Shown here piece by piece: positions 10,670 through 26,626 of a stretch of 64,000 nt of DNA. Position 1 is the first letter of the stretch. Every line of letters starts with the position of its first letter. The stretch covers positions 1-64,000 of the forward strand of contig NZ_BATP01000002.1 of assembly GCF_000739615.1 (NCBI RefSeq). The letters are read 5' to 3'. The notes beneath the pieces are model-generated. The model worked only from the letters and a program-made list of their open reading frames with translations. It made no database searches and was not told the DNA's origin. The stretch comes from Haloferula sp. BvORR071. GTDB lineage: Bacteria > Verrucomicrobiota > Verrucomicrobiia > Verrucomicrobiales > Akkermansiaceae. The position numbers and the translations under genes were made by a program.

Positions 10670-11524
10670 TTAGATCCCGGTCAGCAGCAGCGCACCGACA
10701 ATCCCGGCCTGCTGCTCCAGGAGCGGCGGGACCACGTAGGGGCTGGCTGAGAGCGGCACGAAATATCCCGCGGCGATCTCCTTCAGGATCCGCTCGGTCT
10801 TCTCATGGAAGCCCTCTGCCTGCGAGACGCCGCCGCCGATGATCACCCGCGCGGAGGAAACCACGCCTAGCAGCGAGAGCACCCCGTGCGCGAGATACCA
10901 AGCCTCCGTATCCCAAGCGGCATGATCGCGGGGCAGCTCCGCGGCAGGCTGGCCCCAGCGCGCCGCGATCGAGGGACCGCTGGCCAGGCCTTCGAGGCAA
11001 TCCTTGTGGAAAGAGCAGATGCCGGGATACTCATCGCCGGGGCAGCGGGGCACCTTGATGTGGCCGAACTCCGGGTGCAAAGCACCGTGGATCAGGTGCC
11101 CGCCGGAGAGAATGCCCGCGCCGATGCCAGTGCCGATGGTGATGTAGGCGAGATCGTCCACGCCTTGGCCTGCGCCCAGCCGCGCCTCCGCCAGCACTGC
11201 CGCATTCACATCGGTATCGAGCGTGACCTTGGCCGCGGGGAAGACCTCCGCGATAGCGCCGGTGATCGAAAAATCCTTCCAGCCCGGCTTGGGCGTGGCG
11301 ATGACCTTGCCATACTCCGGGCGCCCCGGGACGATGCCGATCGGCCCGAAGGCCGCCACCCCGATCGCCTCCGGCGTGCCGCGCTCCGCGAACCACTGCA
11401 GCGCCCGCCCGAAGGTCTCCGCCGGGGTGGTGGTCGGGAAGCGCCACTCCTCCTGCACGAGGCCCGTAGCCGTGCCAATGGCGACGACCGTCTTGCCGCC
11501 GCCCAGTTCGATTCCCGCGATCAT
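10670..11524 (-). CDS. ROK-family fructokinase
   Basis: 284 residues. The N-terminal phosphate-binding turn is 'IAGIELGGGKTVVAIG'. The catalytic region 'VTLDTDVNAAVLAEARLGAG' and 'YITIGTGIGAGILSGG' follows, then the zinc-binding ROK segment 'HPEFGHIKVPRCPGD' and 'GICSFHKDCLEGLASGPSIA' with one His and three Cys. The spacing fits ScrK/Mak-type fructokinases that make fructose-6-phosphate from fructose and ATP. Other hexose substrates are possible. It lies 10 bases after the KDPG aldolase stop on the same strand, so the two form a small sugar-breakdown operon. Confidence 0.88.
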   Translation of the reverse strand: MIAGIELGGGKTVVAIGTATGLVQEEWRFPTTTPAETFGRALQWFAERGTPEAIGVAAFGPIGIVPGRPEYGKVIATPKPGWKDFSITGAIAEVFPAAKVTLDTDVNAAVLAEARLGAGQGVDDLAYITIGTGIGAGILSGGHLIHGALHPEFGHIKVPRCPGDEYPGICSFHKDCLEGLASGPSIAARWGQPAAELPRDHAAWDTEAWYLAHGVLSLLGVVSSARVIIGGGVSQAEGFHEKTERILKEIAAGYFVPLSASPYVVPPLLEQQAGIVGALLLTGI

Positions 11525-12167: not shown

Positions 12168-12402
12168 GGACGGGAGAAGAGTTTGCTAGTGGTCAGTGTG
12201 CAGTTTTCAGCAAGACGCAGGAAGTCCCCGAAGGGGTGAGCGGGGAGACTCTGTGGCAGTGCTATTCCGCGCGGCAAGGCGCATCCGTGGCTGCGGCAGG
12301 AAGGCGAATGAGGAATGCAGGATTCGGGATGCCGGAATGGAGTGGGGAGTTCCTGCGCCAACCGCGAACTTGCTGTTGGTGCAGGAGGACGCACTTGACC
12401 CG

Positions 12403-21139: not shown

Positions 21140-22660
21140 TCAAGGCACCACCGCATCCCAGGTCAGCCCGATGCGGATCTCGTCGAAGGTCGAGGGAAAG
21201 ACTCCGGCACCGCTTCCTGAGCGCAAAACGATCCGATCGAAGTCCGGCACGTCCTGATAGCGGAACTGCCGGGTGGCGGAAGACTCCGGTTGGCCGGGCA
21301 CGGGATCGAGGAATAGATCCGTGACCAAGCGCGTCCGGTCGATCCGCACCACGAAGAGATGCGGCTTGCCATCCAGCGGCAGGCCGAATGCGTCTTGGGT
21401 GAGCGATTGCTTCAGCCGCGAACCATAGGAGTTGGCGACGCTCAGCTTGCCGATGAAAAGCTCCTCGCGGTCGTCTTGATAGAGGATGAGACCCGCGAAG
21501 CAGTTGGCGGTGGCCTTGTCGGGATTCCGCATCAGGAAGCTCAAATAAGTTACGCCCTGCGGTGAGAGCTGCTTGGGATCCGGCCGCAGGGTGGCACCCA
21601 CGTTGGTCTCACCAGTGGTGCTCAACGCACCGCCACTGCTCTTCAGGGATGCGCCACCCGCGGCAAAGCTCAGCCCTTCCGGCTCGAAGACCCCTGTGCC
21701 TTCCCACTTCCCCTGTGGTCCGGTGAAAGACGCGTTGCGGAAGGGGCCCGTGGGGTAACTCGCAAAGCTCTCCTCAATGCGTAACGCGGCCGGCTTGGAG
21801 GAGGCATCATTCGCCTTGGTGCCATAGAAGTCCTCGACCACATCCGGAGATCCATCACCGTCCTGGTCCGCCAGCACCGGATCCAGCGGCACAATCAAGC
21901 GCTGGGCCAGGAACTCGGTGCTCACCAGCTTGCCGCCCTTGAGAATCGCCGCGTTCTCGCCCTTCAAGCTGTGCGGGGAGCCGCTGGCTGCGGTGAAGGC
22001 CTCCACCAAGCCCTCCAGCACATGCACCTCTGTTCCTGATGGCGTGCCCGCCGCGGTGACGAAACGGGTGCCGAGGTCCACCACCTTGCCGTCCGTGGTA
22101 TCGACCGTGAAGCCGTGCGCATAGGTCGGCGCATAGGTGCTGATCCGGCCCTTCCCGAGGCGGATCTTGTCCGGCCCATCGATCTGGAAGTCCGCCGGTC
22201 CGCGCACCTTCAGCCGCGCTCCGCCACGCATCGCGATGCCGATCTCCGAGCCGTCCGGCACCGTGAAGGAACCTTTCTCCAGCGGCTGCCCGATCCGCAT
22301 CCCCGCATTCTCAGCAAGTTCATCCGCATCGGTGATCGTGGCCACATGCGTCGCCGCAGCTGGCTTCACCGTGAGACGCTGGCCTGCCAGATAAGAAGCC
22401 GCGGCCACCAGCGCGATCCCGGCGGCAATCGCCGCGATCCGCGGCCAGCGCCGGAAGGGCACCACCACCGGCGCCTCTGGCTTCGCGAAGGGATTCGGCA
22501 GGTCCTCCGCCTCTAGTCCCACTTCCGTGAGGAGGGCGTCCAGATAGGCATCGCGCTGGGCGGGGTCTTTCTCGATGGCCGCCTGGAATTCGCGCAGCTC
22601 GGCCTCCGTGAGGTCATACGACTTCAGGCGCTCGATCCATTTCTGCCAGTCCTGGTTCAT
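21140..22660 (-). CDS. FecR-type anti-sigma factor with C-terminal laminin-G-like module
   Basis: 506 residues. The cytoplasmic N-terminus (about 1-68) should bind the sigma factor. One membrane helix follows (about 75-95, 'IAAIAAGIALVAAASYLAGQ'). A FecR domain covers about 100-245 ('TVDTTDGKVVDLGTRFVTAA', 'TEVHVLEGLVEAF'). A short 'DPVLADQDGDGSPDVVEDFY' segment leads to a beta-sandwich module of about 210 residues ('FAGLILYQDDREELFIGK', 'FDRIVLRSG'). The same module is found in the two divergent secreted proteins at 23456 and 25874. It follows the sigma gene by 41 bases and should hold that sigma factor inactive until a signal arrives outside. Confidence 0.88.
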   Translation of the reverse strand: MNQDWQKWIERLKSYDLTEAELREFQAAIEKDPAQRDAYLDALLTEVGLEAEDLPNPFAKPEAPVVVPFRRWPRIAAIAAGIALVAAASYLAGQRLTVKPAAATHVATITDADELAENAGMRIGQPLEKGSFTVPDGSEIGIAMRGGARLKVRGPADFQIDGPDKIRLGKGRISTYAPTYAHGFTVDTTDGKVVDLGTRFVTAAGTPSGTEVHVLEGLVEAFTAASGSPHSLKGENAAILKGGKLVSTEFLAQRLIVPLDPVLADQDGDGSPDVVEDFYGTKANDASSKPAALRIEESFASYPTGPFRNASFTGPQGKWEGTGVFEPEGLSFAAGGASLKSSGGALSTTGETNVGATLRPDPKQLSPQGVTYLSFLMRNPDKATANCFAGLILYQDDREELFIGKLSVANSYGSRLKQSLTQDAFGLPLDGKPHLFVVRIDRTRLVTDLFLDPVPGQPESSATRQFRYQDVPDFDRIVLRSGSGAGVFPSTFDEIRIGLTWDAVVP

Positions 22661-22701
22661 GAATGGTGGTGCAAAAGGCTTACTTCAAAATGGGACGCAG
22701 G

Positions 22702-23277
22702 TTACCCCTCAAACGGCATTTCATCCACATTGGACTCCGCGCGGCGCTTCAAGATGCAGTTCTTCAGTTGGTTCCGGATCCGGAAAAGCTTCTGCTTGAG
22801 CGCTCCCTCGGTGGTCTTCCAGCGGGTGGCGATCTCCTCCAGCGGAACCCGGGCCTGGTAACGCAGCTGCAGGAGCTGGGCACCTTCGTCCGGCAAAAGC
22901 TTGCGGCACTCGGCCAAAGCCTCCAGCCAGGCATCGGTATCGTCGGCGCGGTCTTCGGCCCCTTCCGCGAGGTGCTCTAACAGACCGCTGTCCACCGGCA
23001 CCTTGCGGCGCGCTTCGTAGCGCCGGAGATAGGTGAGGCATTCGAAGCGCGCGATCGCGAAGGCCCACGATTTGAAATCGGTGCCCGCGGCGAAGCGCTC
23101 GCGCTTGCGGATGATCAGGGCGTTGACGTCCTGTAGCACATCGCGCGCATCGTCCGGGTTGAACACCATCGCGCGGATGAAGAAGTAGATCCGGTGCTGG
23201 TGCGCGATCAACAGCGCCTCGAATTCCCGGGTGACCGCTTGGTCCGGTGGGGGAGTGACGGGACGCTGGCCGTTCAT
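22702..23277 (-). CDS. ECF sigma factor (Rhodopirellula/Verrucomicrobium type)
   Basis: 191 residues from the ATG at 23277; the longer frame to 23544 runs into the promoter region of the divergent gene. Region 2 is 'FEALLIAHQHRIYFFIRAMV' to 'DFKSWAFAIARFECLTYLRR'. Region 4 is 'LLQLRYQARVPLEEIATRWK' followed by 'TTEGALKQKLFRIRNQLKNC', with a typical HTH. It should direct RNA polymerase to a small regulon and is the first gene of an operon with the FecR anti-sigma factor. The divergent secreted protein at 23456, 178 bp away, is a plausible target. Confidence 0.9.
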   Translation of the reverse strand: MNGQRPVTPPPDQAVTREFEALLIAHQHRIYFFIRAMVFNPDDARDVLQDVNALIIRKRERFAAGTDFKSWAFAIARFECLTYLRRYEARRKVPVDSGLLEHLAEGAEDRADDTDAWLEALAECRKLLPDEGAQLLQLRYQARVPLEEIATRWKTTEGALKQKLFRIRNQLKNCILKRRAESNVDEMPFEG

Positions 23278-23455
23278 CGGGAGACGGCATCCATGCGGCA
23301 AATCCGCTGGAAGTTCAACAAGGACCTGCCGCGGATCGCAGGCGATGTCACGCTGCCGCGATTTTTTCAGATCGCCCCGTAACCTGGAAAAGAAGGCGAC
23401 GTAAGCCGCGGTCCACCCGTCGGCGAACCCCCGTCGGGTGGCGGAAACCCCTACC

Positions 23456-25747
23456 ATGAACCTGAGACACCTTTGTATCGCCACCTCCCTCCTCGGCGTC
23501 ACTGCGGATGCCAGTGCCGCCATCTTTGCCCGCGAGGATTTCAATTATGCCGATGGCAATCTTGCCGGCAGCAACGGCGGCGTGGGCTGGCAGTCTGCCT
23601 GGAGCAATGCCCTGGGGACCCCCACCGCCGCCGGAGGGAAGGGCGTGATCAATACTGTCAGCGGCCAGCAAGGCGCGCGGCTCATCTCGGCATTGCAGGA
23701 ACCGCCGCTCGGTGGCAGCAAGACCGTCTGGGTCTCCTTTGAAGGCAAGCAGACCACCAATGTGGCGGGCACTGCCTCTACCAATTCCTACGGGGGCCTC
23801 GGTCTCTATCGCGGCAATACCGAGCAGCTGCTCATCGGCAAGTCGTGGCCCGGCGACTATCAGTGGAAGGCGGGCACGGGCGGAACTTTGATCGGTCCAG
23901 CCGTGCCGGTCTCGACCTTGGCCATGACCAAGATCGTCGCACGCATCACCATGGTGGACGCGGCGACCGATACCCTCGACGTCTGGATCAATCCGGCGGA
24001 CACCAGCAGTGTTGCCGCGCTCGGCTCGCCCCACATCACCCGCACTGATCCGGACCTGTCCTTCGATACCCTGCGGATCCGCGGCGGCGAGGGCGATGCG
24101 GGAGTGACGGCGGAGAGCTGGGCCTTCGATGCGGTGACTGCCGGCGATACTCTCGCCGATGTCGTGGCCTCCGACAGCGATGGCGACCAAATGTTGGATG
24201 CTTGGGAGACCCAACACGGCTTGGTGGTCGGGATCAACGACGCCAATCTGGACCGTGAGCCGGATGGAGCCACCAATCTCCAGGAATACCAGCGCAGCTC
24301 GGATCCCAATGTGGCGGACACGGACGGCGACGGGCTTTCAGACGGAGTCGAAACCGGTACTGGAATCTTCGTCAGCGCTGCCAACACCGGCAGCAGCCCC
24401 ACGCAGATCGATACCGATGGCGACGGTTTGCTCGACAACGAAGAGAACGGCAGCGGTGTCTTCAACGGTCCGCTGGATCCCGGCACCAATCCGAACAAGG
24501 TGGACAGCGACGGCGACACCCATCGCGATGAATTCGAGGTGGCTCGTGGCAGTGACCCGAACTCCGCGGCCTCGGTGCCGGCCACCGGAGATCTGGCCTT
24601 GGTCGGCAGCGACGATTTCAATTCCTATCCCGACGGTCCCGTCGCCGGACTCACGGGGGGCAGCGGCTTCGACTATGACAATACTACTGCCGACGAATCT
24701 TTCGTGGGGCACGATGGTCCAGCCGCGACTGCGGATTGGGATGATGTATTCGGCGCCAGCAACGTGGCGGGCGGCAAGCTTGTCACCCTCAACAGCGGGG
24801 CCAAGCGCGAGTTCAATGGTCCCGGCGAAGGCGCTACCGCCGGCAGCGACGAATACAAGGGTGCCGTGAATGATACCGCGGACACGGTCGGCAGGACGGT
24901 CTATATCCGTGCGGACATGCGCCGCGGTGCGGGTGCCACGTGGAGCGGGATCTCCGCCTTCGACTTCGGCACCGAGCGCGCCTTCGCGGGTGTGACCAGC
25001 GCGCCCAATCCTGCTTCCGGGAATCTGGAGTTCGGCATCGGCGCGCCCTCGCCCACGCCCGTCTATAGCGGCATCCAGCCCATCGCCGGCCGCGACTACA
25101 CTCTGGTGATGAAGCTCGATTACCAGAACGACCTGATCAGCCTGTGGGTGAATCCCGACCTTTCTGCCCCGGAGTCAGCGCCTACGCTCAGCGCCCCATT
25201 CACGCTCACCAATTGGACCACCGCCGGTCGTATTGGTTCGGGCGGCACCGATGCGACCGAGTGGGATCACTTCGTGGTCGCGCGCCAGTGGTCTGCCCTC
25301 GCGGTCTTCCCCGGAGTGGTTCCGCCTACGGACGATTACCTCGCATGGATCTCCGGCTATCCGGTCGCTGGGCAAAGCGGCTTCGACCAGGACCCGGATC
25401 ACGATGGCCTGGCCAATGGCATCGAGCAGGTTTTGGGCACCAGCCCGGCCTCTTCTAACAGCGGCCTGCACGAGGTGGCCGCCACCGGCCCGCACTCCTA
25501 CCGCTTCCGCCATAGCCGGACCAATGCACCGGCCACGGATGTCACCGCTTCCTACGAGTGGTCGGCGAACTTGCTCGACTGGAAAGCTTCGGGAGAAACC
25601 GATCCTAACGGCGTCACCGCGACCATCGCGAGCAGCGTGATCACCGATACCACCGCGCCTGGTGTGGATGAAATCGAAGTGACCGTGACCGTCACCGGAG
25701 GCTCTACCAACAAGGTCTTCGCCCGCTTGAAAGCGGAGCAACCCTGA
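23456..25747 (+). CDS. Large secreted protein with laminin-G-like and thrombospondin-3-like repeats
   Basis: 763 residues from the ATG at 23456; a GTG at 23438 is also possible. The signal peptide ends near 'TADASAA'. Residues about 22-235 form the same module as in the adjacent anti-sigma factor ('YGGLGLYRGNTEQLLIGK', 'LDVWINPADTSS', 'FDTLRIRGG'). Residues about 238-375 hold calcium-binding DxDxDG repeats ('DSDGDQMLDAWETQHGL', 'DTDGDGLSDGVETG', 'DTDGDGLLDNEENG', 'DSDGDTHRDEFEVARG'). A second beta-sandwich (about 385-620) follows. The end has 'DPDHDGLANGIEQVLGTSP' and a last beta domain common at the C-termini of Verrucomicrobiota surface proteins. Probably exported by a sorting system; function unknown. 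Confidence 0.82.
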   Translation: MNLRHLCIATSLLGVTADASAAIFAREDFNYADGNLAGSNGGVGWQSAWSNALGTPTAAGGKGVINTVSGQQGARLISALQEPPLGGSKTVWVSFEGKQTTNVAGTASTNSYGGLGLYRGNTEQLLIGKSWPGDYQWKAGTGGTLIGPAVPVSTLAMTKIVARITMVDAATDTLDVWINPADTSSVAALGSPHITRTDPDLSFDTLRIRGGEGDAGVTAESWAFDAVTAGDTLADVVASDSDGDQMLDAWETQHGLVVGINDANLDREPDGATNLQEYQRSSDPNVADTDGDGLSDGVETGTGIFVSAANTGSSPTQIDTDGDGLLDNEENGSGVFNGPLDPGTNPNKVDSDGDTHRDEFEVARGSDPNSAASVPATGDLALVGSDDFNSYPDGPVAGLTGGSGFDYDNTTADESFVGHDGPAATADWDDVFGASNVAGGKLVTLNSGAKREFNGPGEGATAGSDEYKGAVNDTADTVGRTVYIRADMRRGAGATWSGISAFDFGTERAFAGVTSAPNPASGNLEFGIGAPSPTPVYSGIQPIAGRDYTLVMKLDYQNDLISLWVNPDLSAPESAPTLSAPFTLTNWTTAGRIGSGGTDATEWDHFVVARQWSALAVFPGVVPPTDDYLAWISGYPVAGQSGFDQDPDHDGLANGIEQVLGTSPASSNSGLHEVAATGPHSYRFRHSRTNAPATDVTASYEWSANLLDWKASGETDPNGVTATIASSVITDTTAPGVDEIEVTVTVTGGSTNKVFARLKAEQP

Positions 25748-25873
25748 GCCGGCCAGAGGTCCCCGGCACGGACACCAAGCCATTCACCTCCGGGCTTTTG
25801 GGTTTGCCCGGGGGTGGATGGCGCCCGCAACGGATTTCCCGCCATTTTTTCACCAAGCTTCAAGTAAACCATC

Positions 25874-26626
25874 ATGAATCGAGCCTTCCTCTCCACTGCC
25901 GTCTGCCTTGCCACCGTTTCCTTGCCCGCAGTTGCCGCGGTCCTCGCCACCGAGAATTTCAGCTACGCGGATGGCAGCCTTGCCGGGAGCAACGGAGGCA
26001 GCGGCTGGTCCACCACCTGGACCAATGCCGTCGGCACCACCGCCTCTTCACTCGGTGCTGAAGCCAATATCACCTCCACGCCCGGATCGGAAGTCGCCCG
26101 CACTCTGGCGGCCGCGCAATCCGGCACGGCGACCATCTGGATCCTCTTCGAGGCGCAACAGTTCACCACGCTCTCGGGCAGCACCAACAGCTTTGGAGGC
26201 TTCGGCCTCTACAATGGCAGCACCGAGCAGTTGCTCATCGGCAAGGCTTGGCCCGGGCCCTACGAATGGCGTGCGGGCACCGGCGGTGGTCTGGTCGGCC
26301 CCGCCAGTCCGGTCTCCACTTTGAGCCTGACCTCGGTGCTGGCCCGCGTGACGCTGAATGCCTCTGGCAACGACGTCCTCGATGTCTGGTTCAACCCCGC
26401 GGACATGAGCAGTGAGGGCGCTCTCGGCGCAGCCTCCATCACCCGCACCGATACTGACCTGAACTTCGACACGATCCGCCTGCGCGGCGGGTCCGGTGCC
26501 GGTGGCACGGAGTCCTGGCAGTTCGACAATCTGATCGTGGCCACGGCGCTTTCCGACGTGCCGGAACCATCGTCCGCACTACTGGGTGGCCTTGCCTTGC
26601 TGGGCTTGCTGCGCCGCCGGCGCTGA
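25874..26626 (+). CDS. PEP-CTERM protein made of one laminin-G-like module
   Basis: 250 residues. A signal peptide (about 1-22, ending VAAV) is followed by one beta-sandwich module nearly identical in plan to that of the upstream protein: 'FGGFGLYNGSTEQLLIGK', 'LDVWFNPADMSSEGAL', 'FDTIRLRGGSGAGGTESWQF'. The tail is a classic PEP-CTERM signal: 'VPEPSSALLGGLALLGLLRR' plus more Arg. In other bacteria this is processed by an exosortase and linked to biofilm or exopolysaccharide export. It follows the 763-residue protein by 126 bp and is likely regulated with it. Confidence 0.88.
   Translation: MNRAFLSTAVCLATVSLPAVAAVLATENFSYADGSLAGSNGGSGWSTTWTNAVGTTASSLGAEANITSTPGSEVARTLAAAQSGTATIWILFEAQQFTTLSGSTNSFGGFGLYNGSTEQLLIGKAWPGPYEWRAGTGGGLVGPASPVSTLSLTSVLARVTLNASGNDVLDVWFNPADMSSEGALGAASITRTDTDLNFDTIRLRGGSGAGGTESWQFDNLIVATALSDVPEPSSALLGGLALLGLLRRRR

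Follow-up and report, generated by a model that had tools for sequence, protein, structure and literature searches.

A predicted sigma/FecR switch whose anti-sigma factor carries a remote homologue of the modules in its exported neighbors

The SigI/RsgI systems have anti-sigma factors with module types that are also found in the regulon, such as the GH10 module of RsgI6 and the GH10 xylanases (PMC4711584). In the FoxR/FoxA system of Pseudomonas, a sigma-controlled gene product binds the anti-sigma factor (PMC11637429), and E. coli FecR is cut by membrane proteolysis (PMC8144685). Here we describe a locus that, judged by protein family, is FecI/FecR-like, and whose closest working parallel is, by analogy, the RsgI/SigI system of Clostridium thermocellum, which serves cellulose and biomass sensing. 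The locus lies in a 64,000-nucleotide stretch of DNA from Haloferula sp. BvORR071 (contig NZ_BATP01000002.1; the window). The host genome is 7.8 Mb and Luteolibacter-like, and it shares its GTDB genus with L. marinus NBU1238. Verrucomicrobia have many sigma factors of the TIGR02989 family that are paired with a FecR protein, and our literature search found no paper on what such pairs sense or control.

The sigma gene is directly upstream of the FecR-domain gene, and both products score above their family cutoffs (TIGR02989 and PF04773). The divergent 763-residue protein (P0002) and the PEP-CTERM protein (P0003) are encoded on the opposite strand (Table 1). Further neighbors of the sigma/FecR pair encode a carboxylesterase, Omp85, and TamB. 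No TonB-dependent transducer with a signaling domain was present among the genes adjoining the pair, which were the genes examined. An earlier, sequence-only reading of the locus had called the C-terminal module of FecR extracellular. The topology points to the periplasm instead, because the protein has one membrane helix and the adjoining Omp85 and TamB genes indicate a diderm cell.

Table 1. Features of the sigma/FecR locus (nucleotide positions in the window; aa, residue numbers in the protein)
Feature	Position	Strand	Evidence or remark
FecR-type anti-sigma factor, 506 aa	21140..22660	-	PF04773, 27.7 bits; ten-ortholog alignment; module homology
FecR parts: cytoplasmic N terminus; one membrane helix (aa ~73-94); FecR domain (aa 142-220)			helix read from sequence
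FecR C-terminal half: calcium-type DxDGDG linker (aa ~258-285), then predicted ConA-like module (aa ~288-506)			
FecR C-terminal module	21143..21799	-	profile A2; fold model with ConA-like/galectin-type matches
Predicted sigma-dependent promoter of fecR, GGTAACC-N15-AGTAAGC	22678..22706	-	2 mismatches; PWM score 19.8
ECF sigma factor, TIGR02989 (Rhodopirellula/Verrucomicrobium) family	22702..23278	-	142.8 bits versus cutoff 124.55
Predicted sigma-dependent promoter of the P0002 gene, CGTAACC-N15-CGTAAGC	23378..23406	+	exact pattern
P0002, exported, divergent from sigma/fecR, 763 aa	23456..25747	+	orthologs in L087, L088, and L089
P0002 order: signal peptide, module N (aa 21-240), TSP3-type repeats, module 2 (aa ~375-620), C-terminal region			
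Module N of P0002	23516..24175	+	alignment A1, BLAST
Module 2 of P0002, closest match of the FecR linker-plus-module unit	24578..25315	+	profile comparison
P0003, PEP-CTERM protein, 250 aa: one module and sorting tail	25874..26626	+	PF07589, 27.9 bits versus 20.7

P0002 has no match to the PEP-CTERM motif (PF07589), and its TSP3_bac match falls below the cutoff. Its C terminus reads VFARLKAEQP. Near-identical endings (FARLKATQP, FGRLKATKP, and FARLKATMP) close several large exported proteins of the same genome, and this ending may be a new kind of tail for export or anchoring. A perfect hairpin of 17 pairs with a 10-nt loop lies between the P0002 and P0003 genes (25779-25822, + strand) and has no T-run right after it. 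The hairpin may act in attenuation or mark a processing site. A pattern search found no intrinsic terminator between these two genes, and the locus has no Rfam match.

The profile comparisons indicate that the C-terminal half of FecR is a remote homologue of the modules in P0002 and P0003. The locus holds four copies of the module: one in FecR, modules N and 2 of P0002, and one in P0003. Module N of P0002 is 52% identical to P0003 (E 3e-77), and ~56% identical to the module of P0003. Pairwise, FecR matches module N and P0003 weakly, with E values of 5e-4 and 1e-6 and 23-29% identity. We built profiles from the orthologs for the FecR module (A2), the N-type module (A3), and the second module (A4). 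A2 matched A3 with a probability of 94% (E 1e-7) and A4 with a probability of 95% (E 2e-8), and the N-type and second-module profiles matched each other at 97.6%. The FecR linker and module aligned collinearly, over 237 columns, with the linker and module 2 of P0002 (probability 96.8, score 74.6), whereas 60 column-shuffled controls scored 22.7 at most. A profile built only from modules of other proteins recovered the FecR of the window (E 6e-8) and those of nine orthologs (E 2e-10 to 6e-4). The sequence-only reading had proposed one shared fold for FecR, P0002, and P0003, and this held: the modules are homologous by profiles (94-97%), and the same fold is predicted for them at low confidence. 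The N-terminal part of P0002, which had been named as the partner of the FecR module, is homologous to it, but the best match is the second module unit of P0002.

In a phylogenetic tree, the FecR modules form one clade that is separate from all secreted modules (support 99/99). No FecR module of this clade was seen in the order outside this family. Given the separation, the match to the secreted modules dates far back and is no more than remote, and the single origin means that it is old and was not made repeatedly. We rejected recent copying between FecR and its neighbor, because the FecR modules are one clade.

Searches of Pfam, NCBIfam, and PDB sequences gave no match for the module; weak matches to adiponectin and MlaD were taken as chance. 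Laminin_G_3 (PF13385) had no match at E 1 among 21 module sequences from the A1 and A2 alignments. Two fold models (mean pLDDT 57) have the same strand order, but they come from a shallow alignment of five sequences and share that one set, so they are not independent. Their matches are ConA-like lectins and galectins. The best structural matches, again at pLDDT 57, had Z 8.8 with an rmsd of 3.6 over 157 residues and Z 12.3 with an rmsd of 3.5 over 158 residues. With low confidence, the models suggest that the module is a ConA-type lectin jelly roll.

We found a FecR ortholog in 9 other genomes among the 260 searched in the family, which gives ten loci including the window (L-, G-, and C-numbers designate loci, genomes, and contigs). 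The orthologs are 47-70% identical where they are full-length, and one was found in two pieces. Sets of sigma factor, FecR, and secreted module recur: a secreted module protein adjoins the sigma/FecR pair in nine of the ten loci, although gene order, orientation, and protein type vary. The neighbor is a P0002 ortholog in L087, L088, and L089, none of which has a P0003 counterpart beside it, and a 1593-aa two-module protein in L091. PEP-CTERM proteins bearing the module take this place in L092, L093, and L094. L096 has a 527-aa protein and a PEP-CTERM protein, with a weak HMM match (E 3e-4) and visible motifs. The exception is L. marinus (L090), which has kept the FecR module but has a promoter-bearing neighbor with LamG-like modules. 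In three genomes (G099, G173, and G217), the sole non-FecR module proteins found sit at this locus. The host genome has module proteins at four places, one of which, on C42, also adjoins a sigma/FecR pair.

At the C42-type sister loci (L049, L135, L142, L155, and L166), FecR ends in a LamG-type module, and the exported neighbors carry the window-type module. Strict matching of sensor and target modules is contradicted by these loci and by L. marinus. The gap beside the sigma gene has a TTAGCA...TGCTAA inverted repeat in L049, L135, and L142, and the first half only in L155. Module proteins also form a second conserved cluster (L179 on host contig C54, L191, L192, and L193), with a PEP-CTERM protein of ~264-301 aa and proteins of ~1100 aa and ~1600 aa. 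This cluster is followed in L192 and L193 by a TIGR02989-like sigma gene that has no FecR match next to it, and a sigma gene of this type likewise comes after the C54-like cluster in the relatives G081 and G085. The opposite flank holds a gene of kinase size and another sigma-like gene. No site of the window promoter motif was found at the C54 and L191-L193 clusters. Paralogous FecRs with the same module occur in L097 (9197-10771) and L098 (8906-10378), each directly after a PEP-CTERM gene and with no upstream sigma gene found.

In ECF promoters, the -35 box contains AAC and the -10 box CGT. The aligned divergent intergenic regions contain a motif of this form, CGTAACC-N15-CGTARGC, directed at the divergent gene. 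The site before the P0002 gene is its sole exact match in the host genome, and a scan of seven genomes (about 42 Mb) gave eight exact sites, none of them outside this locus. The window, L087-L090, L093, and L096 also have a weaker site, directed at fecR, between the sigma gene and fecR; in L091 and L092 it can be read by eye as CGTWACC-N15-NGTAWNN. The PWM background is low, at 3 sites scoring at least 16 in 1.69 Mb. One-mismatch matches elsewhere were not commoner than in the reversed control, and therefore we counted only exact or well-placed sites. No site directed at the sigma gene was found. Because the exact matches are confined to the locus and the orthologs have the fecR sites, the motif appears tied to this sigma lineage.

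The conserved sigma-type promoters before the P0002 gene and fecR make a regulatory link likely. The sigma factor likely drives fecR and its exported neighbor P0002, and the exported neighbor and fecR appear to be its main targets. This predicted, promoter-defined local regulon is the strongest new evidence from the locus. It supports the proposed sigma control of the two secreted proteins for P0002, but not directly for P0003, whose gene has no motif copy of its own that we could find and has a strong hairpin upstream. Motif sites also lie upstream of the PEP-CTERM genes in L092, L093, and L094. One promoter-bearing target in L092 is a LamG protein, and another promoter-bearing gene in L091 encodes a protein with autotransporter-type repeats. 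In L. marinus, motif copies at 11218-11246, 11427-11455, and 12226-12254 (+) of L090 precede a NarL-type response regulator and a LamG/TSP3 protein. The L. marinus regulon may therefore include a second regulator, of the NarL type.

The host genome has 15 sigma matches above 80 bits (TIGR02989) and 11 FecR matches. We surveyed 90 sigma/FecR pairs and found that the FecR module matched a neighbor in 11 of them, with 4.9 expected by permutation. The associated p value of 0.0007 is only indicative, because the loci were picked by similarity to the window FecR and are related to one another. Matches were present in 5 of the 30 FecR-module groups. The modules at the ends of FecR proteins in this family are diverse, and for most of them no neighboring protein has a match. 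Co-occurrence, which the sequence-only reading had proposed to survey, is thus enriched, but most pairs share no module with a neighbor, and we rejected the match as a general rule. In two loci on other host contigs, L044 (C62) and L046 (C27), the C-terminal part of FecR matches a domain of the neighbor, with E values of about 5e-27 and 2e-27.

We suggest, with a probability of roughly 60%, that a dedicated ECF sigma/FecR switch governs its own anti-sigma gene and the adjoining exported module proteins, and that sensor and effectors share a kind of ligand. In this scenario, the sigma factor would stay bound to FecR at the inner membrane as long as no signal reaches the periplasmic part of FecR. 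Once a signal arrives, membrane proteolysis would cut FecR, as it does in E. coli, and free the sigma factor, which is predicted from the conserved motif to recognize CGTAACC-N15-CGTARGC-type promoters before fecR and the P0002 gene. Because the FecR module, predicted to be lectin-like, is related to the target modules, sensor and exported targets would most likely bind ligands of one kind, a situation known from RsgI and the cellulosomal enzymes. This ligand may be the signal, or FecR may respond to the exported proteins as they pass. More exported protein and more FecR would be made, and the latter would reset the switch.

The likeness of sensor and targets could also be a matter of common fold and composition. 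Pairwise identity is only 23-29%, and jelly-roll proteins are common in the host genome. However, a collinear alignment that includes the linker and scores more than any shuffled control makes a likeness without homology very improbable. It is more conceivable, if still rather unlikely, that FecR captured the jelly-roll module of a neighbor once, that the module is now a generic periplasmic domain, and that sigma regulation has kept the genes linked. The single origin of the FecR module clade, the varied and mostly unmatched ends of other FecRs in the family, and the exceptions at L090 and the C42-type loci would all fit such a history. Yet the match has lasted across several genera while the neighbor was swapped for other module proteins (L091-L094 and L096), which inheritance alone predicts poorly, and matches are enriched over permuted loci (indicatively) and spread over several FecR-module groups.

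The exported proteins themselves could be what is sensed. The FecR module would then make periplasmic contact with the modules of the proteins that its sigma factor controls, and so directly read an export backlog or the absence of product. The sequence-only reading had proposed such a surface-protein feedback circuit, by module-module contact or by competition for one glycan ligand. Sensor and target have a unit of common descent and can be expected to come together in the periplasm, the sigma factor is predicted to control the target, and FoxR/FoxA offers a precedent for a sigma-controlled product that binds its anti-sigma factor. A similar contact is made by TonB-dependent transducers with their anti-sigma factors. 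Against this, the module match is broken in L. marinus and at the C42-type loci, and remote homology is no argument for homotypic pairing. We therefore consider sensing of this type unlikely, and hold the same doubt about a product-counting circuit for surface-protein export, in which contact between the related modules would let FecR gauge how much of its exported product is present in the periplasm. On the shared-ligand reading that we prefer, promoter and target are both defined here and the sensor module is related to the target, so that signal and regulon are directly testable.

Several known systems resemble parts of this switch. The predicted jelly-roll fold would place the module with Laminin_G_3 and other ConA-like lectin domains, but the module sequences scanned lack a Pfam LamG match. 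P0003 and several ortholog targets have the tail of PEP-CTERM/exosortase surface proteins, whereas P0002 lacks it, and the module is outside the named PEP-CTERM families. As in FecI/FecR systems (E. coli Fec and Pseudomonas FoxI/FoxR/FoxA), an ECF sigma factor is followed by a single-pass FecR anti-sigma factor, and a sigma-controlled product is predicted to share the periplasm with FecR. Unlike those systems, the locus has no TonB-dependent transducer among the neighboring genes, its FecR has a C-terminal module that is predicted to be ConA-like, and the targets are exported surface proteins. Like SigI/RsgI (PMC4711584), it has a sigma gene beside the anti-sigma gene, and the anti-sigma factor is a membrane protein whose extracytoplasmic C-terminal module belongs to a type that exported proteins under the sigma factor also carry, although here that control is predicted. 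SigI/RsgI is autoregulated (PMC4711584); here, the sites found point at the P0002 gene and fecR. The locus differs in that the sigma factor is of the TIGR02989 family and the anti-sigma factor is a FecR, with no RsgI model among the matches. The host is diderm, so the module is predicted to be periplasmic; the regulon appears confined to the locus; and the anti-sigma gene has its own predicted promoter. The RsgI principle, in which the sensor carries the module kind of its effectors, would thereby be extended to FecR proteins.
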